A stretch of DNA of 64,000 nt from Brumimicrobium glaciale (GTDB taxonomy: Bacteria; Bacteroidota; Bacteroidia; Flavobacteriales_D; Crocinitomicaceae), in NCBI RefSeq assembly GCF_004152935.1, contig NZ_SETE01000001.1:434001-498000 (forward strand), written 5' to 3'. The translations under genes were made by a program, and so were the position numbers. Shown here piece by piece: positions 1,969-49,379 of this stretch. The notes under the pieces are model-generated. The model did no database searches. It was given only the letters and a program-made list of their open reading frames with translations, and was not told the origin of the DNA. Position 1 is the stretch's first letter; every line of letters begins with the position of its first letter.

Positions 1969-2592
1969 TTATTTTCTTTTGTCTTTTGTTTCGGGTGGAA
2001 ATGATATCAAATTGAACATCTTTCTTAATCTTGAACGAACACGTTTTCCGTATAGATTTTCAATTTCTTTTGCGGTGAGATTTGTTGTGGCGTGAGTAAC
2101 GATTTGGTGATTCACCAAGAGGTCGTAACGCTGCAATAGAATCTCTGCAATGGTATTGCATTCGTTTCCATAAAATTTGATATTCTGCTCAACTCCAATA
2201 TCATCCAAGCAAAATGCACGTTGCCTTTTTCCGTATGCTTGAATTGTATTGAATCCATTTTGGTTGAATTCAAATGCGATGTCTCTGGTGGATTTTACTT
2301 GGAAAGTTTGCTCGGGTAAAATTATGGTTTGAATAATTTGCATCCACGAGGTTTTTCCGCAACCAACAGGACCAGTTATGAGAATTCCTTTCTTGAGATC
2401 AATCCCATATTTTTTGCATTGGATATCTTCGTGAATCATGTAAATGATGAGCTTGTGAAGAGTTTTGATGTCTTCGTTGTGAATGCGAAATTCTTTTCCA
2501 AACTTCTCTCTTCCTTTGTGCTGAAGGTAGTGTAGCGTGTCGTGGAATTTAAAATGACGCATGTTATTTTTTATTTTATATGGCTTTTCCAT
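1969..2592 (-). CDS. DnaC-like AAA+ ATPase of a mobile element
   Basis: A 207-residue P-loop ATPase. Walker A is GPVGCGKT (residues 74-81), Walker B FCLDDIG (127-133), a sensor-like THATTN (166-171) and an arginine-finger region KRVRSRLRKMFN (183-194). The order and spacing are those of DnaC/IstB-type helicase-loading ATPases. Proteins of this kind sit beside replication proteins in Bacteroidota integrative elements. It starts 11 bases after the stop of the replication-initiator-like gene, so the two are probably co-transcribed and may act together to load helicase on the element. There is no transposase nearby, so an IstB role is unlikely. Confidence 0.8.
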   Translation of the reverse strand: MEKPYKIKNNMRHFKFHDTLHYLQHKGREKFGKEFRIHNEDIKTLHKLIIYMIHEDIQCKKYGIDLKKGILITGPVGCGKTSWMQIIQTIILPEQTFQVKSTRDIAFEFNQNGFNTIQAYGKRQRAFCLDDIGVEQNIKFYGNECNTIAEILLQRYDLLVNHQIVTHATTNLTAKEIENLYGKRVRSRLRKMFNLISFPPETKDKRK

Positions 2593-2603
2593 GAGTTCAA
2601 ATT

Positions 2604-3515
2604 TTACAATGGTTCAGAATAATCTTTGTTTTCGTTGACGTGTAATCTCTGCTGTGCCGGACTTCGGTTTTGTGCTTGGTATTTTTCATCCCGGATAATC
2701 CAGTTCTTTGCAGCAGCTTTCCAATTTTTCATTTTTGCTTTTCCACCAACCAACCATCCATTGGATTCATAATGGTTGAAAAAGGTTTCAGCAACTTCGT
2801 AAGACGATTTATTCTCGTGAAAAAATGTTTTTGCTTCTTTGAGTTCCGGAGGAAGGAATCTTTTGCGTGTGGAGGGCGATTTCAAATCGGCCTTACTTGC
2901 TTTTTTGGATTTGAGCGAATCGGATGATTGCAAATCACTTTTTTTGGGCGATTGCAAATCGCCCTTTCGAAAAGAAAATTCATCATCATTATTTTGGGAT
3001 GAATGGGGGGAAGATTTTTTTTCTTCCCCTTCTTTTGTTTTATATAGTTTATTATTGTTTTCTATTTGTTTATTATAGTTTACTATATGTTTAGTATTGT
3101 TTAAGAAAGGTCGCACGAGATGTTCAGATGTTGTATCAGGTGATGTATCACTTGTTGTATCAGATGATGTATCAGATGATGTATCAGATGATGTATCAGG
3201 TGTTGTACCACGTGTTGTATCAAATCTGTACATGTGAACTTTTGAAGATTTAAACCTACTTTTAGAAGGAGTGTAATTGATGTATTTCCATTCACTTAAC
3301 TGCTTTAAACACTTAGAGTAAGTATTGGTAGAACCAATTTTTGAAAACTGCATTAATTCATCCCGACGAATGTTGATTTCATTTTTAAACCGAGTGCTGT
3401 TCCATAATTGAAACAAGGACATATACAGGCTTACATGCCACGGAGTAATGCGAGGATCATCTCTAAATTTGAGCATCGCATTCTCCATGTGATGTATGTA
3501 GTTGACTGCTTCCAT
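2604..3515 (-). CDS. replication-initiator-like / DnaD-type protein with repetitive linker
   Basis: A 303-residue protein. Residues 1-105 look like a winged-helix DNA-binding domain (ITPWHVSLYMSLFQLWN, then IGSTNTYSKCLKQLSEWKYI). Residues about 107-130 are a low-complexity run of DTSS/DTTS units, followed by a Lys/Ser-rich linker. The C-terminus (FFNHYESNGWLVGGKAKMKNWKAAAKNW, split here for description) matches the short motif common at the end of DnaD-like and phage replisome-organiser proteins. I infer a role in starting replication of the mobile element, upstream of its ATPase. The linker carries two kinds of DNA repeat, at 2873-2964 and 3127-3222, so its length may vary between strains. 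Confidence 0.7.
   Translation of the reverse strand: MEAVNYIHHMENAMLKFRDDPRITPWHVSLYMSLFQLWNSTRFKNEINIRRDELMQFSKIGSTNTYSKCLKQLSEWKYINYTPSKSRFKSSKVHMYRFDTTRGTTPDTSSDTSSDTSSDTTSDTSPDTTSEHLVRPFLNNTKHIVNYNKQIENNNKLYKTKEGEEKKSSPHSSQNNDDEFSFRKGDLQSPKKSDLQSSDSLKSKKASKADLKSPSTRKRFLPPELKEAKTFFHENKSSYEVAETFFNHYESNGWLVGGKAKMKNWKAAAKNWIIRDEKYQAQNRSPAQQRLHVNENKDYSEPL
2873..2964. repeat. three related palindromic repeats inside a coding region
   Basis: Three units share the core GATTkCAAATC: one in 2873-2893, one in 2921-2938, and a near-perfect palindrome GGGCGATTGCAAATCGCCC at 2946-2964. They encode the DLQSPKKS / DLQSSDS / DLKSPS pieces of the linker. The best copy resembles the intergenic palindrome at 1942-1961, which suggests REP-type elements have been captured in frame. 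Confidence 0.75.
3127..3222. repeat. 12-bp tandem coding microsatellite (DTSS units)
   Basis: About eight imperfect copies of a 12-base unit (GATGATGTATCA on the + strand) encode the DTSS/DTTS/DTSP run on the minus strand. Because the unit is a multiple of three, gain or loss would change the linker length without breaking the reading frame. Confidence 0.85.
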
Positions 3516-3517
3516 GC

Positions 3518-3802
3518 CTACACATTTTGTTTAAGATCATCGATTATGTTAAGGATATCCTGTTTATCATAAAAGATAACACCACCCACTTTTGAAAAAG
3601 GAATAATTCCATTTACGCGCATGTTTTGCAAGGTACCTTGGGAGATTGCTAGCATACGTTGTACTTGATGAGACTTCAGAAGAACTGGATCGGGTGAGGA
3701 CGTGCTTTGAGTTAATAGCTCTTCTTTTAATGATTCTAAAGACGATAGGATTGAGTCTTTTAATTCTTGCAGATCTTCCTGCGTTACAATTGAAATTTGC
3801 AT
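3518..3802 (-). CDS. excisionase-like helix-turn-helix protein
   Basis: A 94-residue protein. The N-terminal half is a likely coiled coil (EDLQELKDSILSSLESLKEEL). Residues about 40-90 form a MerR/excisionase-type winged helix: LLKSHQVQRMLAISQGTLQN then INGI/IPFSKVGG-like wing and FYDKQDILNII. Small proteins of this type in Bacteroidota elements bind DNA and can act as excision factors or regulators. Its stop is three bases from the start of the replication-initiator-like gene, so it is the first gene of the leftward cassette. The G-rich repeats at 3857-4171 lie directly upstream and are candidate binding sites for it or for the initiator. Confidence 0.75.
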   Translation of the reverse strand: MQISIVTQEDLQELKDSILSSLESLKEELLTQSTSSPDPVLLKSHQVQRMLAISQGTLQNMRVNGIIPFSKVGGVIFYDKQDILNIIDDLKQNV

Positions 3803-3856
3803 ATGACATTGGTTTAAAGATTAGGTACAAATAGAAGTAAAAGTTTTTAATATTTT

Positions 3857-4171
3857 GGGTTGCAGGGGGTTGCACTTTTGACGTAAACCCCACGTAAAAT
3901 GCAGGATACAAAGGTTTATTTTTTTTGAGCTTGGTGTAATGCGCTCTCAGTCGCTCAATTTCTATTAAAATGACACTAAAACTTACTAAATCTTATCAAA
4001 TCCTATGAAAAATGACGGTTTAAAAGCTACAAGAATTACAGGGGGGTTGCACTTTTTCTTAAAATCAGCTTAAAGCCAATGTCTACAGTAGGTTTGTACG
4101 TATTTTTGGTGTGGAAAATAGCTGAAATTAAGGGGGGTTGCACGTGGGTTGCAACCCCCAGTGCAACCCCC
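3857..4171. repeat. iteron-like GGGGGTTGCAC cluster, candidate element origin
   Basis: The 11-mer GGGGGTTGCAC occurs at 3865-3875, 4042-4052 and 4133-4143 in one orientation and as GTGCAACCCCC at 4161-4171 in the other. Half copies (GGGTTGCA at 3857-3864 and 4146-4153) sit next to full ones, so 4133-4171 forms an inverted pair. The G runs stand out in very AT-rich DNA. The cluster lies just upstream of the HTH, replication-initiator-like and DnaC-like genes, which is where an iteron-type replication origin or an autoregulatory operator would sit. The role is inferred from position only. Confidence 0.65.
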
Positions 4172-4340
4172 TTGAATACCCCATGAACATTGAGGTTTAG
4201 CGAAAATGACATTTTTACTATTAAATTTGATTGTATTTATTGCTATTTGCCTTAGATTTGTGTCAGTAACTAGTCCGAAAAAAGAGGACTTTCAAACAAA
4301 ATGATAAATAGAATAGATTAAAATAGACATATAATAATAT

Positions 4341-4491
4341 TGTAGCGTAAGCTATTTTTAGAACTCGTAAACCGCCAGTTATACATTATCCTCTAAAATA
4401 TAGTCTTGACGCCTTGCTACGGCATGGGCTCAAGATTGTTAGAGGATGGGACCCTGGCGGTTCCCAGAGTTCTGCATGAATGGGTTCATGC
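4341..4491 (+). ncRNA. candidate structured RNA: nested four-helix fold with flanking hairpins
   Basis: On the + strand: a small hairpin TAGC-GTAA-GCTA (4343-4354, GNRA-type loop); then nested helices P1 AGAACTC 4360-4366 with GAGTTCT 4467-4473, P2 ACCGCCAG 4371-4378 with CTGGCGGT 4454-4461, P3 ATCCTCTA 4388-4395 with TAGAGGAT 4440-4447, and P4 TCTTGA 4404-4409 with TCAAGA 4430-4435, extended by GCC/GGC. A separate hairpin GCATGAA-TGGG-TTCATGC follows (4474-4491). All these pairings are perfect and separated by unpaired internal loops, which is typical of a functional RNA and not a simple terminator. It ends 20 bases before the ATG of a 65-residue ORF, so it could be a leader, a free RNA, or single-stranded DNA folding at a transfer or recombination site. 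I do not recognise the family; the strand is inferred from the GNRA loop and the ORF. Confidence 0.6.
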
Positions 4492-4511
4492 TACTTCATT
4501 ACAATTGAATC

Positions 4512-4709
4512 ATGTTAAAAGTCGAACTTCTAAATTTTCCGTTAAATATTGAACAGGTTGATTATGTCATACTGTTTATGATTTATCATAATATCGATAG
4601 TATTCAAGAACTAGTTGATCAACCCATTGACAATTTAAGACAAAAGGAGGACTGGGATGAAAGATTAGAGCTGATACTAAAGATCATTCACGAAAATCAT
4701 CATACTTAA
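4512..4709 (+). CDS. small acidic helical protein, unknown
   Basis: A 65-residue ORF starting with ATG shortly after the folded element. It is rich in Ile, Leu, Asp and Glu (DNLRQKEDWDERLELILKII) and is predicted by eye to be helical. No family is recognised. Its 3' end overlaps the end of the opposite-strand 502-residue gene by 26 bases. It could be a real small protein controlled by the RNA in front of it, or a chance ORF; codon use looks normal for the neighbourhood but the length is too short to be sure. Confidence 0.4.
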   Translation: MLKVELLNFPLNIEQVDYVILFMIYHNIDSIQELVDQPIDNLRQKEDWDERLELILKIIHENHHT

Positions 4710-6192
4710 AATTGTACATTTTAAATATTAAGGACTTCACCCTTTCGAAGCTCTTTTTATCCATATCATACATTTTATTTCTAAAACTTATATTGGAGTA
4801 TTCAATATTGTTTTTGTTGGTAATTGCATATGGTACCCAGTTCGAGATATTCGTCACATTCTCGTTGAGAGTATCGGCTTCTTTAAATAATCTGCATAAA
4901 ACGGCAATCTCTTTAATGTTCAGTGCGGATGATAATTTTTGAAAAGAATTTGATCCCTTTTTATTGAGTTTCAAGGCATGGGTTTGATCTAAATAACTAA
5001 GTTCAACATCAGTCCATTTTAGCAACTTATGTGCTAGGTGATGTTCATCCACCTTGGAATGAAATTCAGCGCTTAGTAAAGCTTGCTCAAAGTGTTTTTG
5101 CTTTATGGACAATCGAATGTTTTGTTCTTCTTTACTTTCTACCTCATATAAACTGGATTTGATATCATCAGTTATAAAGGTTAGAAAACTCTTCTTTTTA
5201 AAATTGATTGAAATCAAAAAATAGATAATTTCATCTTGGTTAATTGATGTGTAATTTATTTTTTTTAGAAAAGAATTAAATGCTTTTAAAAATTCTTTGT
5301 AAGCTTCAAAACTGTTGTAATTAATTCTATTGGAAATATCGAATGAGAGGATCTTGTTTATTTCACTTTCTATTATGGCCCTAAACCTTTCATCGAGTTC
5401 AATTTTCTTTAATTTCTTTAAAATTTCTTTAGAGAGATTTACAAAATGATTTTCATTGAGTAATTTAGAGTAATACGGAATCTGTTGATTGAGATCCATT
5501 GAATGATGAAATGTTGTCGTCACAAAGTCGAGTACCTTTACAATTGACCTGTAAACTAACATGACACAATCCTTTCTATTATAGGATTGTTTTATTTTTA
5601 TGTTTAAATCTGTAGATTTCAATTGATACTCATTGGTTATTTCATTTAAATAACTATTGAAAATACGTTGAAGTTTTTCAATTCCTTTTTTGAAGACTTC
5701 CTCTGTATTGTTGAGCGCTAATTTTCGGAGTTTATTAATATGCTCAATTTCCATTTCCTTTAACTGAATATTAAAATATCCGTAAATCAATCGGTCGTTG
5801 TCAATTTCGGACCATTCAGATTCTAGAGCAACACCAATTACATCAAAACCATTTTGCTTCTTATAAACGTAATCATTCTTTACTTTCTCGTGATTTAAGT
5901 TTAATAATTCAAAAACTTTTGGGCTTATGAGGGTTGTAGGATTATTAGGGAAGTCAATTTCATTGTTAACGAAAAAACTTTCTGCTAGGGGATGAGCGGT
6001 TGAGATTCTTAGTTCTTCAATTAACTTAAATTCACTACTCTCTTTTTTAAATTTTCCGATTATCATGTCCTTACAGACCATTTGTTCAGAGTTTAGATAG
6101 TCAGCTACTTTAAGAGCATCCAATTTGTTCGGAACTAAGGGACCATTAATTAGATCATGATATGAAATGATTTGGTTAAAAAAATCTTGCAT
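4684..6192 (-). CDS. uncharacterised 502-residue protein of the mobile element
   Basis: A long, clearly protein-like reading frame of 502 residues, rich in Lys, Asn, Ile and Glu, with no signal peptide or membrane segment. I recognise no catalytic motif. The last 120 residues (LLKWTDVELSYLDQTHALKL, then SALNIKEIAVLCRLFKEA) have a layout loosely like the C-terminal part of RteC-type regulators of Bacteroides conjugative elements: a W-T-x-x-E-L helix followed by a helix pair and a basic tail. This is a weak resemblance, not an identification. It lies between the folded RNA element and the integrase, on the integrase strand, with a 191-base gap and a terminator from that gene. Alternatives are a regulator, a defence cargo protein, or a replication accessory factor. 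Confidence 0.6.
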   Translation of the reverse strand: MQDFFNQIISYHDLINGPLVPNKLDALKVADYLNSEQMVCKDMIIGKFKKESSEFKLIEELRISTAHPLAESFFVNNEIDFPNNPTTLISPKVFELLNLNHEKVKNDYVYKKQNGFDVIGVALESEWSEIDNDRLIYGYFNIQLKEMEIEHINKLRKLALNNTEEVFKKGIEKLQRIFNSYLNEITNEYQLKSTDLNIKIKQSYNRKDCVMLVYRSIVKVLDFVTTTFHHSMDLNQQIPYYSKLLNENHFVNLSKEILKKLKKIELDERFRAIIESEINKILSFDISNRINYNSFEAYKEFLKAFNSFLKKINYTSINQDEIIYFLISINFKKKSFLTFITDDIKSSLYEVESKEEQNIRLSIKQKHFEQALLSAEFHSKVDEHHLAHKLLKWTDVELSYLDQTHALKLNKKGSNSFQKLSSALNIKEIAVLCRLFKEADTLNENVTNISNWVPYAITNKNNIEYSNISFRNKMYDMDKKSFERVKSLIFKMYNFKYDDFRE

Positions 6193-6343
6193 ATCTAATG
6201 ATTTGTTACTAAATAAACAAATTTTAACACATTATCATAGGTTTATCACAAGTAATATGGAGTCCTTATTTGTGATAATAAGTAGTATTTGATGTTAAGT
6301 TATTTGTATATAGTGTGTTATTGTCTTTTTTGGTTAGAAAAGA

Positions 6344-6371
6344 AAACACCAAGCTGTTAAGCCTGGTGTTT
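6344..6371 (-). terminator. intrinsic terminator after the integrase gene
   Basis: AAACACCA (6344-6351) pairs with TGGTGTTT (6364-6371), and the minus-strand transcript then runs into a T-rich tract (A-rich 6336-6344 on +). It lies 13 bases beyond the integrase stop. Confidence 0.65.
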
Positions 6372-6383
6372 GAGTTATTTGAT

Positions 6384-7646
6384 TTATCCCATTTTTCTTT
6401 GATCTGGACTCGCTTCAACTAATTGAGAAAGCTTTGCTTTCAAGTTTTGCATATCTTCAGACACTTTGCTCTCAATGACCTTAGCGTAAATTTGAGTTGT
6501 ACGAATAGAACTATGGCCAAGCATTGAGCTTACCGTTTCAATAGGTACGCCATTGGATAATGTTATGGTTGTTGCAAAGGTATGACGAGCGATATGCGAG
6601 GTAACCTTCTTCTTTATACTGCATATATCTGCAATCTCTTTTAAGTAACCATTATATCTTTGATTGCTGTTTACCGGAAGAAGTCTGTTTTTGTTTAAGC
6701 AGTATGGGTGTTCTCTGTACTTCTCTATAATTTCAAGTGCAACTGGTAATAAAGGAACACTTTCTTTTACACCTGTTTTTTTTCGATTTGTTTTCAACCA
6801 GGATCCACCATCTATTCCTTTGACGATGGCATCATATTCGAATTCGTAGATATCAGCATATGCGAAACCGGTGTAGCAACAAAAAATGAAAACATCACGT
6901 ACTTCAGCTAAACGCTTTATAGAGATTTCTTTAAATCTAATTCTATCGACTTCTTCTTGAGTAAGTACTTCCCTTTTAGGTGCAATGTAGCTACATCGGA
7001 AGTTTTTAAAAGGGTTTGAAGAAATCCAGTCTAATCCAACTGACATGTTCATTACCGTTTTTAGGTTCTTAATGTACTTGTGTGCTGTGTTTGTATGTAG
7101 GTTATCTTGCGTAAGCAGATAATGCTCAAATTCTGTGGCGAAGCGTAAGCGAAGCTCTGACAATGATTTGTCTTTTATTTTGTACTGGTATTTCATAAAG
7201 GCTACGACTTTCTTCTTAGTAATTACGTAGCGTGTATAAGTTTTTTTAGCTGTTTGACCTATTTGGACCTTTTCTTCCATTTTGTTGTTGTGGTAGTCTA
7301 AAGCGTCTAAGATGGTTTTCTGGGTTGGCTTCTCGTCGACTCCTAGATATTTGTTTTTTATATCTGTGCTTGTAACAGTGTTTCCTTGTGAAACTTCTTG
7401 AATGAATATTTGATTAATGTCATTTATGACTTTATCAATATAGGCGTTTAGAAAAAGGGATTTAGAAAAAGAGGGTTTAACTCTTCTTTTTTTCTCATTC
7501 CAAGCAGAAGATGGGATGTAGTGAGTGGTGGCAATTTCTGCTCGTTTGAGATCAACTACAATTCTAATGTATAGTTGAACATCTCCATTTTTAGCCTTTT
7601 GTTTTTTTGGATAAAACTGAACTTTAAACTTTTGATTCCTTTTCAT
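6384..7646 (-). CDS. tyrosine recombinase (integrase), IntDOT-like
   Basis: A 420-residue site-specific recombinase. Residues 1-100 match the arm-DNA-binding domain typical of Bacteroidota integrases, 110-210 the SAM-like core-binding domain (LHTNTAHKYIKNLKTVMNMS), and 230-395 the catalytic domain. Visible active-site residues are Lys in LKTNRKKTG, His351-x-x-Arg354 (HIARHTFAT), His378 (MLGHSS) and the nucleophile Tyr387 (TTQIYAKV). The first catalytic Arg, expected in TG-x-R, is replaced: the sequence is YTGFAYADIYEF with Ala262. Loss of this Arg is known in the IntDOT family of conjugative transposons. The gene starts 340 bases from tRNA-Gln, with palindromic repeats between, so it probably catalyses integration of the cassette to its left. 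Confidence 0.9.
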   Translation of the reverse strand: MKRNQKFKVQFYPKKQKAKNGDVQLYIRIVVDLKRAEIATTHYIPSSAWNEKKRRVKPSFSKSLFLNAYIDKVINDINQIFIQEVSQGNTVTSTDIKNKYLGVDEKPTQKTILDALDYHNNKMEEKVQIGQTAKKTYTRYVITKKKVVAFMKYQYKIKDKSLSELRLRFATEFEHYLLTQDNLHTNTAHKYIKNLKTVMNMSVGLDWISSNPFKNFRCSYIAPKREVLTQEEVDRIRFKEISIKRLAEVRDVFIFCCYTGFAYADIYEFEYDAIVKGIDGGSWLKTNRKKTGVKESVPLLPVALEIIEKYREHPYCLNKNRLLPVNSNQRYNGYLKEIADICSIKKKVTSHIARHTFATTITLSNGVPIETVSSMLGHSSIRTTQIYAKVIESKVSEDMQNLKAKLSQLVEASPDQRKMG

Positions 7647-7729: not shown

Positions 7730-7862
7730 TTTTTTGGTGACCTAAATATTTAAAATATTTAGGTCACCACATAGGTCACCAAAAAACTACTCTGAGAGTG
7801 TTTTAAGCTTCAATTCCGGTGACCTAAAATTACTTTAAATTTAGGTCACCACATAGGACACG
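7730..7862. repeat. paired 33-bp palindromes with direct repeats, candidate att/arm sites
   Basis: A perfect 33-bp palindrome spans 7736-7768 (arms GGTGACCTAAATATTT and its complement around a central A). A second, imperfect 33-bp palindrome with the same outer arms (GGTGACCTAAA...TTTAGGTCACC) spans 7818-7850. Each is followed by ACATAGG then CAC, so the block TTTAGGTCACCACATAGG is a direct repeat 82 bases apart. An additional inverted arm (TTTTTTGGTGACCT at 7730-7743 against AGGTCACCAAAAAA at 7773-7786) surrounds the first. They lie between the integrase start and the tRNA gene, the expected place for integrase or excisionase binding sites. Confidence 0.75.
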
Positions 7863-7980: not shown

Positions 7981-7987
7981 TTTTAGT

Positions 7988-8059
7988 TGTCCCACTAGGT
8001 CTCGAACCTAGACTCTTCTGTACCAAAAACAGACGTGTTGCCAATTACACCATGGGACA
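7988..8059 (-). tRNA. tRNA-Gln(TTG)
   Basis: The minus strand folds into a 72-nt cloverleaf: acceptor TGTCCCA/TGGGACA, D arm GTGT/ACAC with loop AATTGGCA, anticodon arm TCTGT-TTTTGGT-ACAGA giving anticodon TTG, and T arm CTAGG-TTCGAGA-CCTAG. CCA is not encoded. The gene has its own promoter (8101-8130) and terminator. Its 3' side faces the integrase, as expected if it is or was the attachment target, although no second copy of the tRNA 3' end was found in the window. Confidence 0.95.
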
Positions 8060-44700: not shown

Positions 44701-47700
44701 CCGTTACTAGAGCTCGTATTAATCTTTACTCTAACAATACGGAAGATTGGTTATTAACGCCAGCATTTGACTTGTCGGTTGGTGGCTATGAGTTAGTTAT
44801 TAATACAAATGCAACGGATTATGGTTCTACTACTTCATTTAGTGATATGGGGTCGGATGATGAGGTACAAATAGTTGTTTCAACTGACGGCGGTACGACA
44901 TGGACTGCTATTTATACCTGGGATAATACAAATCCTTTACAATTAGCAGCCAATGATGTTTCCATTGATTTAAGTGCTTACACTGGCGCTAATACCTTGT
45001 TTGGAATTTGGGCTTATGAAGGTACTGTAAATGATACGGAAGACTATTATATATATATTAATAACTTTGAGATTAGAACACCTCCTTCTTGTTTAGCTCC
45101 TTCTACTCTAACAGCAATAAATATAACTTCTACATCTGCTGACTTAGGTTGGACAGAAAGCGGTACAGCAACTACATGGAATATTGAATATGGAACTTCT
45201 GGATTCATTGCAACAGGAACACCAAGCATCACAGGAACTACAACAAATCCGCATTCAATTTCTGGTTTATCAGCAAATACTGCTTATGACTTTTATGTGC
45301 AAGCAGATTGTGGTTCAGGAACAAGCACTTGGTCAGGACCTTTTTCTTTTACTACACCTTGTGGTGTGCTCACTCCAACTTATACTCAGGATTTTGCATC
45401 ATTCTTGCCAGACTGCTGGGAAGAAGCTAAAGGAATTTTAACTGCCTCAACAATACTTACAGGAACTTCTTCTTCATGGATAGCTGATGGTTTCGCTAAC
45501 GCTGGTTCATCTGGTGCAGCTAGAATGAACATTTATGCGACAAATCAAAATGAATGGTTGATTTCTCCTTCTATGGATTTAACAGGTGGACCATTTCAGT
45601 TAAAGTATGATGTTGCATTAACAAAATTTTCTGGGAATACAGCTTCAACAATGGATCTAGATGATTCTTTAGTTGTCGTTATTTCTACAGATAATGGTGC
45701 AACTTGGTCTGATGCAAACATTCTTAAAGTATACACAAGTGGCTCAGAACCATCGAATACTGGAAGTTTGGAAATATTAAATCTTTCCGCATATACTGGG
45801 ACTATTAAAATTGGTTTCTATGCCTATTCTTCGCAAAACCTTAGCGTGGATAATAATGTATACATAGATAATTTTGTTGTGGAATTAGTACCGTCTTGTT
45901 CTGCTCCATCTACGCTAACAGCAACAAATATCACTTCATCATCAGCAGATTTAGGTTGGACAGAGAATGGAACCGCAACAACATGGAATGTTGAGTATGG
46001 TGCTTCTGGATTCATTGCAACAGGAACACCAACTGTAACGGGAACATCAACTAATCCTTATTCAGTTACTGGATTAAGTGCAACCACTACTTATGATTTT
46101 TATGTACAGTCTGATTGCGGTGGAAATCAAAGTTCTTGGACAGGTCCGTTTTCAGTCACTACTCCATGCGGAACATATACTCCTGATTACGCACAAGATT
46201 TTGCATCATTCTTGCCAGACTGCTGGGAAGAAGCTAAAGGAATTTTAACTGCCTCTACAATACTTACAGGAACTTCTTCTTCATGGATAGCAGATGGTTT
46301 CGCTAACGCTGGTTCATCTGGTGCAGCTAGAATGAACATTTATGCGACAAATCAAAATGAATGGTTGATTTCACCTGCTATTGATTTAACTGGTGGTCCA
46401 TTCCAATTAGAGTATGATGTAGCATTGACTGTATATTCAGGAACTGGAGCAACAACATTAGATGCGGATGATTCATTGGCTGTAGTTATCTCTACTGATA
46501 ATGGAGCAACTTGGTCAAATGCTAATATTCTTAAAACTTATACTTCAGGATCAGAGCCTTCAAATGCTGGTGAACATGCGACTATTGATTTGTCTGCTTA
46601 CTCAGGTGTTGTTAAGTTTGGATTTTATGCAACTTCAACAGTAAACCTATCTGTAGATAACGATATTTTTATAGATAATATTCTGGTAACTAGTTTTTGT
46701 GCTTCAACTTCCGGAACAGACACCCAAGCTGCTTGTGAAACTTTCGATTGGATTGATGGAAATACATACACATCATCAAACAACATTGCAATGCATACAT
46801 TGACAAATGCAGCAGGTTGTGATTCTATTGTAACACTAGATTTAACGATTAACAATTCAAATACTGGAACAGACACCCAAATTGCATGTGACAGTTATAC
46901 ATGGATTGATGGAAATACATATACAGCATCAAACAATACTGCAACACATACTTTAACGAATGCAGCAAATTGTGATTCAGTTGTAACGTTAGCTTTAACA
47001 ATCAACAATTCATCAACTGGAACAGACACGCAAATTGCATGTGACAGTTATACATGGATTGATGGAAATACATATACAGCATCAAACACAACTGCAACGC
47101 ATACATTAACCAATGCAGCAAATTGTGATAGTGTTGTAACTTTAGCTTTAACAATCAATAACTCAAGTTCTGGAACAGACACGCAAGTAGCATGTGATAG
47201 TTATACTTGGATTGATGGGATGACTTACAATTCATCGAACAATACTGCAACACATACATTAACCAATGCAGCAAATTGTGATAGTGTTGTAACCTTAGCT
47301 TTAACAATCAACAATTCCACAACTGGAACAGACACTCAAGTTGCTTGTGTAAGTTTGACTTGGATTGATGGAGTGGTTTATACGGCAGATAATAATACTG
47401 CAACACATACAATAGTTGGCGGTTCAATGCATGGTTGTGATAGTGTTGTTACTTTAAATTTGACGATGAACAATATAGTAACAGGAACAGATACACAAGT
47501 GTCATGTGATAGTTATACATGGATTGATGGAATGACTTATACTTCATCGAATAATTCAGCGATTCATACAATAGTTGGTGGATCAACTCAAGGTTGTGAT
47601 TCAATTGTAACGTTAGATTTAACAATCAACAATTCAAATACTGGAACAGATACGCAAGTTGCTTGTGATAGTTATATTTGGATTGATGGAAACACCTATA

Positions 47701-49379
47701 CTGCATCAAACACAACTGCAACGCATACATTAACCAATGCCGCAAATTGTGATAGTGTTGTGACTTTAGCTTTAACAATCAACAACTCAAATACTGGAAC
47801 AGATACGCAAATTGCTTGTGATAGTTACACTTGGATTGATGGAAATACTTACACTGCATCAAACACAACTGCTACGCATACATTAACCAATGCAGCAAAT
47901 TGTGATAGTGTTGTCACTTTAGCATTAACAATCAACAATTCATCAACTGGAACAGACACACAAATTGCTTGTGATAGTTACACTTGGATTGATGGAAACA
48001 CTTACACATCTTCAAATAACACTGCAACGCATACTTTAACCAATGCAGCGAATTGTGATTCAGTGGTGACTTTAGCTTTAACAATCAACAATTCCACGAC
48101 TGGAACAGATACACAAGTAGCATGTGATAGTTACACTTGGATTGATGGAAACACATACACATCTTCAAATAATACTGCAACGCATACTTTAACCAATGCA
48201 GCGAATTGTGATTCAGTTGTGACTTTAGCTTTAACAATCAACAATTCAACAACTGGAACAGACACACAAATTGCTTGTGAGAGTTATACTTGGATTGACG
48301 GAAACACTTATACTGCATCAAACAATACTGCAATGTTTACTTTAACCAATGTAGCGAACTGTGATTCAATTGTGACTTTAGATTTAACAATCAACAATTC
48401 AACAACTGGAACAGATACACAAACTGCTTGTGAGAGTTACACTTGGATTGATGGAAACACTTACACATCTTCAAATAACACTGCAACGCATACTTTAACC
48501 AATGCAGCGAATTGTGATTCAGTGGTGACGTTAGCTTTAACAATCAACAATTCATCAACTGGAACAGACACACAAATTGCTTGTGAGAGTTATACTTGGA
48601 TTGACGGAAACACTTATACTGCATCAAACAATACTGCAATGTTTACTTTAACCAATGTAGCGAACTGTGATTCAATTGTGACTTTAGATTTAACAATCAA
48701 CAATTCAACAACTGGAACAGATACACAAACTGCTTGTGAGAGTTATACATGGATTGATGGGATGACTTACACTTCGTCAAACACTGCAGCAATGTTTACA
48801 ATAGTTGGTGGAGCAGCAAATGGATGTGATTCAATTGTGACCTTAGATTTAACAATTGATGACCTGAATTTTGCTGGAAATGATACTTCAATAGTTATTT
48901 GTATTAATCAATCAGTTGATTTAGGTACTTTGTTGAGTTCAAACGCTCAATTAGGAGGTACTTGGTTAACTCCTGCTGGAATTCCTATTTCAGGTACTGT
49001 TATCACTTCAAATGTGGCTAATGTTTTTGATTATAGTTATGAAGTTTCTTCGTTGGCTTGTCCAACAAGTGTGGCGACTATTTCAATAACAGTAGACCCA
49101 GGATGTGACCATTTATCGATCATAAAAGAAGCAATGGTGGATATATCAGTATATCCAAACCCTGCATCAAGTGTCTTGACGATTCTTAATCCATCTAATG
49201 TTTCATCTTTAAGAGTGGAAATGTTAGATATGAATGGTCGATTAGTGTTAGTTGAAGACAAAGCGTTGAATAATGCAACTAAAGCTACATTAGCAATTGA
49301 TCGTCTTGAAACAGGAGTTTATACATTACGTGTATACAATTCCGAATCACAGAGAATCTTCAAGATTGTGAAAAGATAG
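41733..49379 (+). CDS. giant modular surface adhesin 1 with T9SS sorting domain
   Basis: A 2548-residue protein if the first ATG is used. The signal peptide MKSFILSIFSILILTIGN begins at residue 67 (ATG 41931), so this may be the true start and the first 66 residues a leftover leader (see findings). Modules in order: jelly-roll (choice-of-anchor J/MAM-like) domains, and six Fn3-like modules of about 90 residues (LGWTENGTATTWNVEYG ... CGG..W.GPFSFTT) spread over 42450-46165 and alternating with jelly-roll modules; then 14 copies of a 51-residue repeat (46713-48867); a linker with SITVDPGCDHLS; and the C-terminal sorting domain (ISVYPNPASSVLTILNPS ... VYTLRVYNSESQRIFKIVKR, ends) used for T9SS export and surface attachment. 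The role is probably adhesion; carbohydrate binding by the jelly-roll modules is possible. Confidence 0.88.
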   Translation: MKNVFPNLNSNKSAHNMKRWKTFSNLFPPIFLTGKFNKTREIRTTQEESGMVKNNFTSSLTYKSKFMKSFILSIFSILILTIGNTQVLTEGFESGIPVNWSQEYESGSADWVQAAQNSNNTIAPRTGTGMAHFQTNNYTSVTKLVTPELDLTSLTVPELSFYFANVSWGSDITELRMYYKNTAGGAWTQFGLSYTTAHTSWTQVEIILPNPSSTYYIAFEGSSNYARGLELDDIIVIEAPSCIAPTALTTTNITATSADLGWTDNNSATAWNVEYGAAGFGQGGGTMVTGTTTNPHSLSGLSGNTAYDFYVKSDCGGGDESAWSGPFSFTTSCSAASVPYTQDFESVTIPGLPSCTSLENTGIGNDWRTGNPTGFTGQVLNYSYHGSSPAGTANSWFYTQGIDLDAGVAYSISYKYGNNSTTWTESLKVAFGASPVELSMTNSLADYPAINTSTPIDANITFTVATDGVYYFGFNCYSIENQNQLYVDDILVDVVPTCLAPSTLTAANITASSAELGWTDNASATTWNVEYGADGFAQVGGTTITGTTTNPYSLSGLSASTDYDYYVQTDCGGGDLSTWEGPFSFTTPCAIEVPDYTEDFTTFLNPCWSKAKGPISGPTSFGSSQWVSDNFGNTGSNNSARFNLYNTGGQEWLITPMFDLTGGGFEINLDAALTPWSGTASSIIEADDAVYVMQSIDGGATWTTIYTWDAANSPSNIGDNITIDISAIISATTQFAIFALEGNTSGGDYRFFIDNFKVRTPPSCNAPSALTVTNLTAILADLGWTENGTATAWNVEYGADGYTQGGGTMVTATTTKPHSISGLSANTAYDFYVQADCGGAGTSTWSGPFSFTTPASCPAPSTLTATNLTATSASLGWTENGTATTWNVEYGADGFAQVGGTTITGTTTNPYSLSGLSASTDYDYYVQTDCGGGDLSTWEGPFSFTTPCGSITPDYSTDFTSFLPSCWDEASSGTLTTGPTSIGTGSWHQSVTRARINLYSNNTEDWLLTPAFDLSVGGYELVINTNATDYGSTTSFSDMGSDDEVQIVVSTDGGTTWTAIYTWDNTNPLQLAANDVSIDLSAYTGANTLFGIWAYEGTVNDTEDYYIYINNFEIRTPPSCLAPSTLTAINITSTSADLGWTESGTATTWNIEYGTSGFIATGTPSITGTTTNPHSISGLSANTAYDFYVQADCGSGTSTWSGPFSFTTPCGVLTPTYTQDFASFLPDCWEEAKGILTASTILTGTSSSWIADGFANAGSSGAARMNIYATNQNEWLISPSMDLTGGPFQLKYDVALTKFSGNTASTMDLDDSLVVVISTDNGATWSDANILKVYTSGSEPSNTGSLEILNLSAYTGTIKIGFYAYSSQNLSVDNNVYIDNFVVELVPSCSAPSTLTATNITSSSADLGWTENGTATTWNVEYGASGFIATGTPTVTGTSTNPYSVTGLSATTTYDFYVQSDCGGNQSSWTGPFSVTTPCGTYTPDYAQDFASFLPDCWEEAKGILTASTILTGTSSSWIADGFANAGSSGAARMNIYATNQNEWLISPAIDLTGGPFQLEYDVALTVYSGTGATTLDADDSLAVVISTDNGATWSNANILKTYTSGSEPSNAGEHATIDLSAYSGVVKFGFYATSTVNLSVDNDIFIDNILVTSFCASTSGTDTQAACETFDWIDGNTYTSSNNIAMHTLTNAAGCDSIVTLDLTINNSNTGTDTQIACDSYTWIDGNTYTASNNTATHTLTNAANCDSVVTLALTINNSSTGTDTQIACDSYTWIDGNTYTASNTTATHTLTNAANCDSVVTLALTINNSSSGTDTQVACDSYTWIDGMTYNSSNNTATHTLTNAANCDSVVTLALTINNSTTGTDTQVACVSLTWIDGVVYTADNNTATHTIVGGSMHGCDSVVTLNLTMNNIVTGTDTQVSCDSYTWIDGMTYTSSNNSAIHTIVGGSTQGCDSIVTLDLTINNSNTGTDTQVACDSYIWIDGNTYTASNTTATHTLTNAANCDSVVTLALTINNSNTGTDTQIACDSYTWIDGNTYTASNTTATHTLTNAANCDSVVTLALTINNSSTGTDTQIACDSYTWIDGNTYTSSNNTATHTLTNAANCDSVVTLALTINNSTTGTDTQVACDSYTWIDGNTYTSSNNTATHTLTNAANCDSVVTLALTINNSTTGTDTQIACESYTWIDGNTYTASNNTAMFTLTNVANCDSIVTLDLTINNSTTGTDTQTACESYTWIDGNTYTSSNNTATHTLTNAANCDSVVTLALTINNSSTGTDTQIACESYTWIDGNTYTASNNTAMFTLTNVANCDSIVTLDLTINNSTTGTDTQTACESYTWIDGMTYTSSNTAAMFTIVGGAANGCDSIVTLDLTIDDLNFAGNDTSIVICINQSVDLGTLLSSNAQLGGTWLTPAGIPISGTVITSNVANVFDYSYEVSSLACPTSVATISITVDPGCDHLSIIKEAMVDISVYPNPASSVLTILNPSNVSSLRVEMLDMNGRLVLVEDKALNNATKATLAIDRLETGVYTLRVYNSESQRIFKIVKR
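43302..43492. repeat. 191-bp exact repeat (copy 2 at 44379-44569)
   Basis: The DNA of an Fn3-like module (TTWNVEYGADGFAQVGG and on to YVQTDCGGGDLSTW) is identical over 191 bases at 43302-43492 and 44379-44569. A second pair, 45391-45565 and 46198-46372, differs in about two bases over 175. Such identity implies recent recombination or gene conversion. Confidence 0.9.
46713..48867. repeat. 14 tandem 153-bp repeats (51-residue units)
   Basis: Each unit begins GTDTQxACxSYTWIDGNTYT and ends CDSVVTLALTINNS. Most are exactly 153 bp; three (numbers 5, 6 and 14) are two residues longer with the variant HTIVGG or FTIVGG. Units 11 and 13 are the same in sequence and lie 306 bp apart (starting 48255 and 48561), so a two-unit block was duplicated recently. 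A conserved Cys pair per unit may form a disulphide outside the cell. Confidence 0.95.

Follow-up and report, generated by a model that had tools for sequence, protein, structure and literature searches.

A covarying RNA family of Bacteroidota, probably a switching 5' leader, with one copy in an integrative element of Brumimicrobium glaciale

The window, a 64,000-nucleotide stretch of the Brumimicrobium glaciale genome, holds an integrative element at 1969-7646 that encodes an integrase, a 502-residue protein (p500), an excisionase-like helix-turn-helix (HTH) protein, a Rep-like protein, a DnaC-like protein and an amidase. Between the excisionase-like gene and a 65-residue open reading frame (p65) lies the structured RNA that is the subject of this report (Table 1). 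The family of elements to which this one belongs adjoins tRNA-Gln or tRNA-Lys (six RNA-bearing loci scanned) and has a gene set of integrase, RteC or p500, excisionase-like HTH, Rep-like and DnaC-like proteins, often with an amidase. No att repeat flanking the element was found in 27 kb to its left or in the first 6.5 kb of the loci of five relatives. Two long palindromic repeats, 7735-7768 and 7818-7851 (GGTGACCTAAA...TTTAGGTCACC), are situated between integrase and tRNA-Gln, and may serve as arm sites for the integrase or as stops for transcription. The Rep-like gene contains 12-bp in-frame tandem repeats (3124-3231) that give a Thr/Ser/Asp-rich linker differing among relatives; its protein has partial matches in 13 phage records, 11 of which are Polaribacter Freya phages. 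Iteron-like GGGGGTTGCAC repeats, partly palindromic, occur at 3865, 4042 and 4133-4173, between the HTH gene and the promoter-like motif of the RNA. Part of these is retained at a locus without the RNA (L026).

Table 1. Features of the RNA locus and the surrounding element (positions in the window)
Feature	Position	Strand	Evidence or remark
HTH_17 excisionase-like protein, element backbone	3518..3802	-	PF12728, E 6.9e-7; excisionase PHROGs
Second TAnnTTTG	4222-4229	+	Sequence
Promoter-like motif: ATTG (4230-4233), 19 nt, TAGATTTG (4253-4260)	4230..4260	+	Sequence
Structured RNA, very probably a leader; entire conserved unit	4341..4496	+	R3 132.1 bits, E 1.9e-33 (window copy is among the sequences used to build R3)
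H0, 5' hairpin, GUAA (GNRA) loop	4342-4346/4351-4355	+	MFE fold
P1, 7 bp	4360-4366/4467-4473	+	477/493 cells paired, shuffled 0.473, z 23
P2, 9 bp	4370-4378/4454-4462	+	491/495 cells paired, shuffled 0.713, z 22
P3, 10 bp	4386-4395/4440-4449	+	97.4% of cells paired; 7/7 model pairs change on both sides
P4, 10 bp	4400-4409/4430-4439	+	88.2% and 82.4% of cells paired (two model parts)
P5, apical hairpin, 4 + 3 bp	4411-4417/4422-4429	+	Inner part 0.966 paired vs 0.846, z 9.8
P6, GGGA/UCCC	4448-4451/4462-4465	+	Flanks P2 3' strand; absent from model
P7, apical strand with tail	4422-4429/4484-4491	+	Excludes P5; absent from model
3' hairpin, 7 bp	4474-4480/4485-4491	+	MFE fold of window copy
P8-like helix, GGUUCA/UGAAUC	4483-4488/4506-4511	+	Immediately 5' of ATG; window copy scores 12.5
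p65, 65-aa ORF, small helical HhH-like protein	4512..4709	+	
p500, 502 aa, convergent	4684..6192	-	Slot occupied by RteC in sister elements
Tyrosine integrase	6384..7646	-	PF00589, PF13102, PF17293; adjoins tRNA-Gln
tRNA-Gln	7986-8059		Adjoins element integrase

The protein p500 was found at 8 places in 7 of 99 genomes. It has no Pfam hit above the cut-off, no match in a search of viral contigs or by tblastn against phages, and its model (pLDDT 81.6 for the best of five, 58-65 for the other four) matches nothing in the PDB at E 0.001 or better. A relationship to RteC was considered and found no support, the hhalign comparison with nine proteins from the RteC slot not being significant.

The small protein p65 starts at 4512, and the folded region ends at 4491, in keeping with the 20-base gap of the initial annotation. 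It has no Pfam hit; its AF2 model is a small helical bundle (pLDDT 88.7) with weak fold matches, all at E >1, to the NusA acidic repeat, the Rad51 N-terminal domain and the C-terminal domain of the RNA polymerase alpha subunit. One homologue matches the latter domain (PF03118) at E 7.5e-4, below the cut-off. Small ORFs of the p65 type lie directly 3' of the RNA in 12 element copies, some of them 15-22% identical to p65. The protein is probably an accessory regulator, arriving with p500 in place of RteC.

The minimum free energy (MFE) fold of 4341-4491 on the + strand has an energy of -69.5 kcal/mol, compared with -37.6 ± 3.6 for 200 dinucleotide shuffles (z -8.85). None of the 200 folded as well, which bears out the initial annotation in calling the fold far more than chance, and every helix it had named is present in the MFE fold. 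The opposite strand also folds (-59.6 kcal/mol, z -6.70). The covariance model R2 scores 153 bits on the + strand of the window versus 22.3 on the - strand. Two of the annotated details were not borne out as features of the family. The GNRA loop of H0 is GUAA here; across the family GNRA is found in 14 of 79 copies and GUUA is commoner (23 of 79). The 7-bp 3' hairpin is predicted in the window copy and was not seen as a family feature; the pairing of its strand that was put to the test, and that covaries, is P7.

Homologues of the RNA were collected in several ways. A DNA search of 99 relatives gave two clear ones, 82% and 77% identical, with compensatory swaps in P2. A strict DNA pattern matched eight genome contigs, six of them from Brumimicrobium (four), Lishizhenia and one other member of the Crocinitomicaceae; the remaining two, from Agreia, have no covariance-model match and were treated as chance. 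No viral contig matched this pattern; three matched a core pattern and were kept in the alignment. Searches with blastn (two copies against plasmids, one against phages) gave no match. Seven element copies were reached through the p500 loci. Covariance models were built from seven copies (R2) and from 36 copies (R3). With R2, 36 copies, each spanning the whole model, were detected in the family (29 of 240 genomes). R3, at E 0.01 or better, detects the RNA in the order (59 of 399 sampled genomes), the class (112 of 395 genomes, 70 of 197 genera) and the phylum (43 of 326 genomes, with 10 lying outside the class). There is overlap between these samples, and a few near-threshold matches (e.g., G087) may be chance. 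Several genomes carry at least seven copies each (seven candidates scored per genome), and the genome of the window carries one (R3). Far from being limited to the mobile region in which it was first noticed, the RNA belongs to a phylum-wide family of putative leaders, of which the element carries one copy.

In 24 other loci (390 kb), 21 of them previously negative with R2, R3 found nothing at E 1 or better. Within the window R3 gives three additional weak matches (E 0.04-0.34), so that matches near E 0.01 are insecure. Two of these, on the - strand at 47185-47329 and 48115-48259 (15 bits, E 0.04-0.06), are 930 bases apart and probably represent chance or an unrelated repeat. Two loci (L093 and L170), in genomes placed in two different families, share the surroundings of the RNA and the gene that follows it, suggesting recent transfer or contamination; the second was excluded from the alignment as a duplicate of the first. 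From among the places listed for order, class and phylum, 40 were fetched into the alignment and 20 for context.

The resulting alignment of 79 copies (78 distinct rows) shows 94.7% standard pairs in the cells of the 41 model pairs, compared with 64.9% for shuffled partners and 38-43% for partners slid by 1 to 3 columns. Both sides change in 40 of the 41 pairs (891 cells, versus 271 in shuffles), and 0 of 500 shuffles matched any of five covariation measures. A covariance comparison of homologues had been proposed in the initial annotation, and these are the compensatory changes it would look for. Because the model guided the alignment, the pair counts lean towards it; compensatory swaps are present as well when three or seven copies are aligned by sequence alone. 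Covariation on this scale refutes a chance fold or a functionless repeat.

Individual helices (H0, P0, P1, P2, the inner part of P5, and P6) were compared with shuffled partners in the 71 of 79 copies that are <90% identical, and P8 in 70. H0 is 0.917 paired versus 0.797 ± 0.013. P5 corresponds to helices 7 and 8 of the 79-copy alignment, with 100% and 96.3% of cells paired. Pairing of the 5' end with the tail (P0) is weakly supported (0.738 versus 0.669 paired, z 5.6), and a first RNAalifold model (R1) in which these two strands close the molecule was rejected for this reason.

The helices outside the model (P6, P7 and P8) are a fairer test of covariation than the model pairs. P6 has 264 of 284 possible pairs (best of four spacings), compared with 246.5 ± 2.7 and a maximum of 254 in shuffles treated by the same procedure. 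On one side it is mostly separated from the 3' strand of P2 by one or two bases (58 of 71 copies), and on the other it adjoins that strand directly. P6 would form a pseudoknot with P2 or be an alternative to P2. The tail strand GUUCAUGC (4484-4491) can pair within the 3' hairpin or with the apical GCAUGGGC (4422-4429), the latter pairing being P7. In P7 five pairs change on both sides (2.3 in shuffles), in 17 cells (3.3), and 0 of 500 shuffles reached these values; its variants include GCGUGG/CCACGC, GGGUGG/CCACCC, GUGCGG/CCGCAC and GCGCGG/CCGCGC. In P8 the tail pairs with a strand some 20 bases downstream of it, with a mean best score of 11.7 versus 7.14 ± 0.53 when shuffled (maximum 8.23, n = 70). 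Its strength varies: the score is at least 14 in 35 of 70 copies, and 14 of 70 have no such helix. In the window copy P8 would end at the base preceding the ATG of p65. P7 is mutually exclusive with P5 and shares the tail with P8, so that P5, P7 and P8 are covarying alternative helices with common strands (P8 in about half of the copies). P5 and P7 may instead be held simultaneously in a tertiary fold.

The promoter consensus of Bacteroidota is TTTG-N19-TAnnTTTG. In the window two TAnnTTTG motifs lie 88 nt and 119 nt 5' of the RNA, and L016 has TTTG where the window has ATTG. Across the family a TAnnTTTG is found within 100 nt upstream of 59 of 79 copies; read in antisense, that stretch has one in 3 of 79. 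In 71 of 79 copies an ATG opens a frame of 50 or more codons no further than 60 nt downstream; the controls gave 3 of 79 when read in antisense from the opposite end and 257 of 1580 at random positions. The structured leader, one of the options first raised for this locus, is therefore supported by covariation, by start-codon position and by upstream promoter-like motifs, and the RNA is very probably a structured leader acting in cis. In a second set of 20 copies (phylum sample, mostly a few genera), a start codon lies within 60 nt in four, and eight lack a frame of 50 codons within 260 nt; not every copy is thus a close leader. Four of this set stand 227-247 nt 5' of receptor-like genes that resemble one another.

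A run of at least five T in the 16 nt past the tail is found in 58 of 78 copies, compared with 60 of 780 control windows. The T content is 74-97% at positions 4 to 9 past the tail and then declines. The initial remark that no T run follows the structure is correct for the window copy, where the longest run past the tail is 2 and no terminator-like site was found on the + strand within 4100-4800, and does not hold for the family. Among mobile-element copies 6 of 12 have a run of at least five, the window copy not being one of them. Five copies of one genus (L189, L190, L194, L198 and L163) lie 227-247 nt 5' of similar genes, most with long T runs. Two genes at this distance were scanned (L163 and one from the second set), and both encode TonB-dependent receptors.

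These features bear on whether the RNA could be a trans-acting sRNA with its own intrinsic terminator, for which gene proximity and read-through would be incidental. A T run directly past the conserved unit, the compact closed fold, the five copies of one genus at 227-247 nt from similar genes and the eight second-set copies with no nearby frame all speak for such an RNA. Against it stand the start codon on the same strand within 60 nt in 71 of 79 copies, before differing genes, the helix P8, which in half of the copies joins the tail to a strand near that codon, and the absence of the T run from half of the mobile-element copies. An independent sRNA is improbable.

A folded DNA element has also to be weighed, i.e., a recombination, transfer or transposition site that is attC-like, REP-like or a small inverted-repeat element. 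The RNA does occur in a mobile element, some copies have complementary ends (P0), and the opposite strand folds too (median z -5.3 over the 79 copies). The sense strand nevertheless folds better in 77 of 79 copies (median z -6.5, with z < -3 in 78 of 79), its orientation is fixed relative to the start codon and the promoter-like motif, and the helices are diverse in sequence yet conserved in pairing across the phylum. As to an integron attC site, which would lie behind each ORF of a cassette array served by an integron integrase, copies were seen before an ORF, and among the matches listed few are close together on one contig (the closest pair about 130 bases apart). Of the 29 family-level loci with further RNA copies, 5 carry the element backbone and 24 do not, which lends no support to the recombination or transfer site first offered as an option. 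An integrase-like match lies close to three of the 24 (L081, L082 and L102).

The converse comparison, from the element to the RNA, points the same way. Matches to the excisionase-like protein occur in 24 of 99 genomes at 39 places, eight of which are the known elements. At 20 of the 31 others R2 was applied, and no RNA was found. Integrase, HTH, Rep and DnaC are all present at 12 of these 20 loci. In the slot between integrase and HTH gene of the 12, six proteins are RteC by Pfam (PF09357, E 3.9e-38 to 1.4e-65), those of L043, L053 and L058 were aligned with these six, and the slot contains other frames in L044 and L045 and no frame in L042. A second element, at 7700-8420 of L026 in a genome matching Brumimicrobium salinarum, has p500 and lacks both the RNA and the p65 frame; it would appear to have lost, or never had, them. 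A DNA site is accordingly very unlikely, and the structured cis leader is again the preferred reading.

What the leader would control was approached through the neighboring genes. Seventy-five downstream proteins were found, and 56 were scanned together with Pfam: five have a type IX sorting domain, three LamG, three a LuxR-type HTH and two a receiver domain, and DNA methylase or restriction domains recur. No reverse transcriptase, the criterion for a retron, was detected among 25 of the 41 Pfam families of these 56 proteins, and in the window the ORF that follows the RNA is the 65-residue p65, which has no Pfam hit. The genes downstream of the RNA appear diverse, and a pathway in common is not evident. 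Such diversity would suit a leader that binds a protein, either for autoregulation or as the target of a common RNA-binding protein, with no small-molecule riboswitch involved. The 12 mobile elements whose first gene encodes a small HhH-like protein fit as well, the weak resemblance to NusA repeats and the alpha C-terminal domain being compatible with a partner of RNA polymerase or RNA. A candidate protein was not found, however, and p65-type genes accompany only some copies, so that p65 cannot be the general partner. We regard a protein-binding leader as a rather doubtful, though real, alternative.

We therefore favor, with a probability of roughly 0.6, the reading that 4341-4496 belongs to an RNA family widespread in Bacteroidota and acting in cis as a switching 5' leader. 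Switching between P5, P7 and P8, as read from the sequences, has slightly better than even odds. Given the covariation of the exclusive helices and the T runs of 58 of 78 copies, a conditional terminator or a start-site switch is the most likely form. The RNA would be transcribed together with the downstream gene. In one state the tail would be free or held by P8; in the other it would be paired upstream, in P7 and, for part of the copies, with the 5' end as well, and a GC-rich stem before the U-tract would stop transcription. Where the U-tract has decayed, as in the window element, the switch would hide or expose the start region, and the gene under control would be p65. The balance between states would be set by a cellular signal, perhaps a metabolite, an ion or a protein. 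Whether termination is the main output is evenly poised, and a small-molecule ligand is conceivable at rather less than even odds.

A bolder proposal, tentative and on balance unlikely, is a new Bacteroidota riboswitch class in which one signal acts on a P2-P6 pseudoknot core and a three-way exchange among P5, P7 and P8, and places the accessory regulator of the element under joint control with surface and secreted proteins, response regulators and restriction-modification genes. The element would then have captured a leader and tuned itself to the state of its host. The family raises the question of what signal surface adhesins, response regulators and restriction-modification genes could have in common. 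As it stands, a small integrative element carries, 5' of its own accessory gene, a kind of putative RNA control that otherwise precedes chromosomal genes. To our knowledge, few leader RNAs of such size and with such strong covariation extend across a phylum, and one that the reference library lacks would add a regulatory input new to Bacteroidota.

The locus was initially called unrecognised, and that description stands: no Rfam 15 family reaches its gathering score on the window copy, nor on the copies of 20 further loci that were scanned. A relaxed search (E up to 5) of 4240-4720 gave three sub-threshold matches, all 3' of the RNA. A 2017 paper reportedly lists 224 RNA candidates. The parts of the literature consulted (including PMC2864571, PMC8040213 and PMC9723704) contain no description identifiable with this RNA, which may be listed in supplementary tables, and the main texts of PMC11109978 and PMC8632094 contain none of the Bacteroidota names looked for. 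The RNA is apparently an undescribed class within the structured leader RNAs. It resembles orphan riboswitch candidates and attenuator leaders in its 5' leader position, promoter motif, exclusive helices and putative output at a T run or start site, and differs from them in matching no Rfam 15 family. Flavo-1 RNA (RF01705) is described as a structured RNA widespread in Flavobacteria (PMC2864571, PMC9723704), with hits indistinctly sense or antisense to transcripts (PMC9723704); it has no match here, and of the present family 71 of 79 copies lie in sense orientation to a start codon nearby. For Flavobacterium psychrophilum 64 structured 5' transcribed regions are reported, with leaders that lack Rfam hits and some that are conserved across genera (PMC9723704). 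The leaders named there as examples (pheA, hisG, ftsY, acsA, alaS and rimP), which alone could be compared, are not among the downstream genes identified here.

For the element itself the comparison is with RteC-regulated elements, since the sister elements share Int, RteC, excisionase-like HTH, Rep and DnaC. Integrative elements regulated by RteC are of the CTnDOT type. In the RNA-bearing elements p500 and p65 replace RteC, and no RteC was found by Pfam or hhalign between integrase and excisionase in the window element. CTnDOT also encodes RteR, a trans-acting sRNA; there too an RNA goes with an integrative element of Bacteroidota. By its description RteR is set apart from the present RNA, which is leader-like and lies outside the element in most of the family-level loci.
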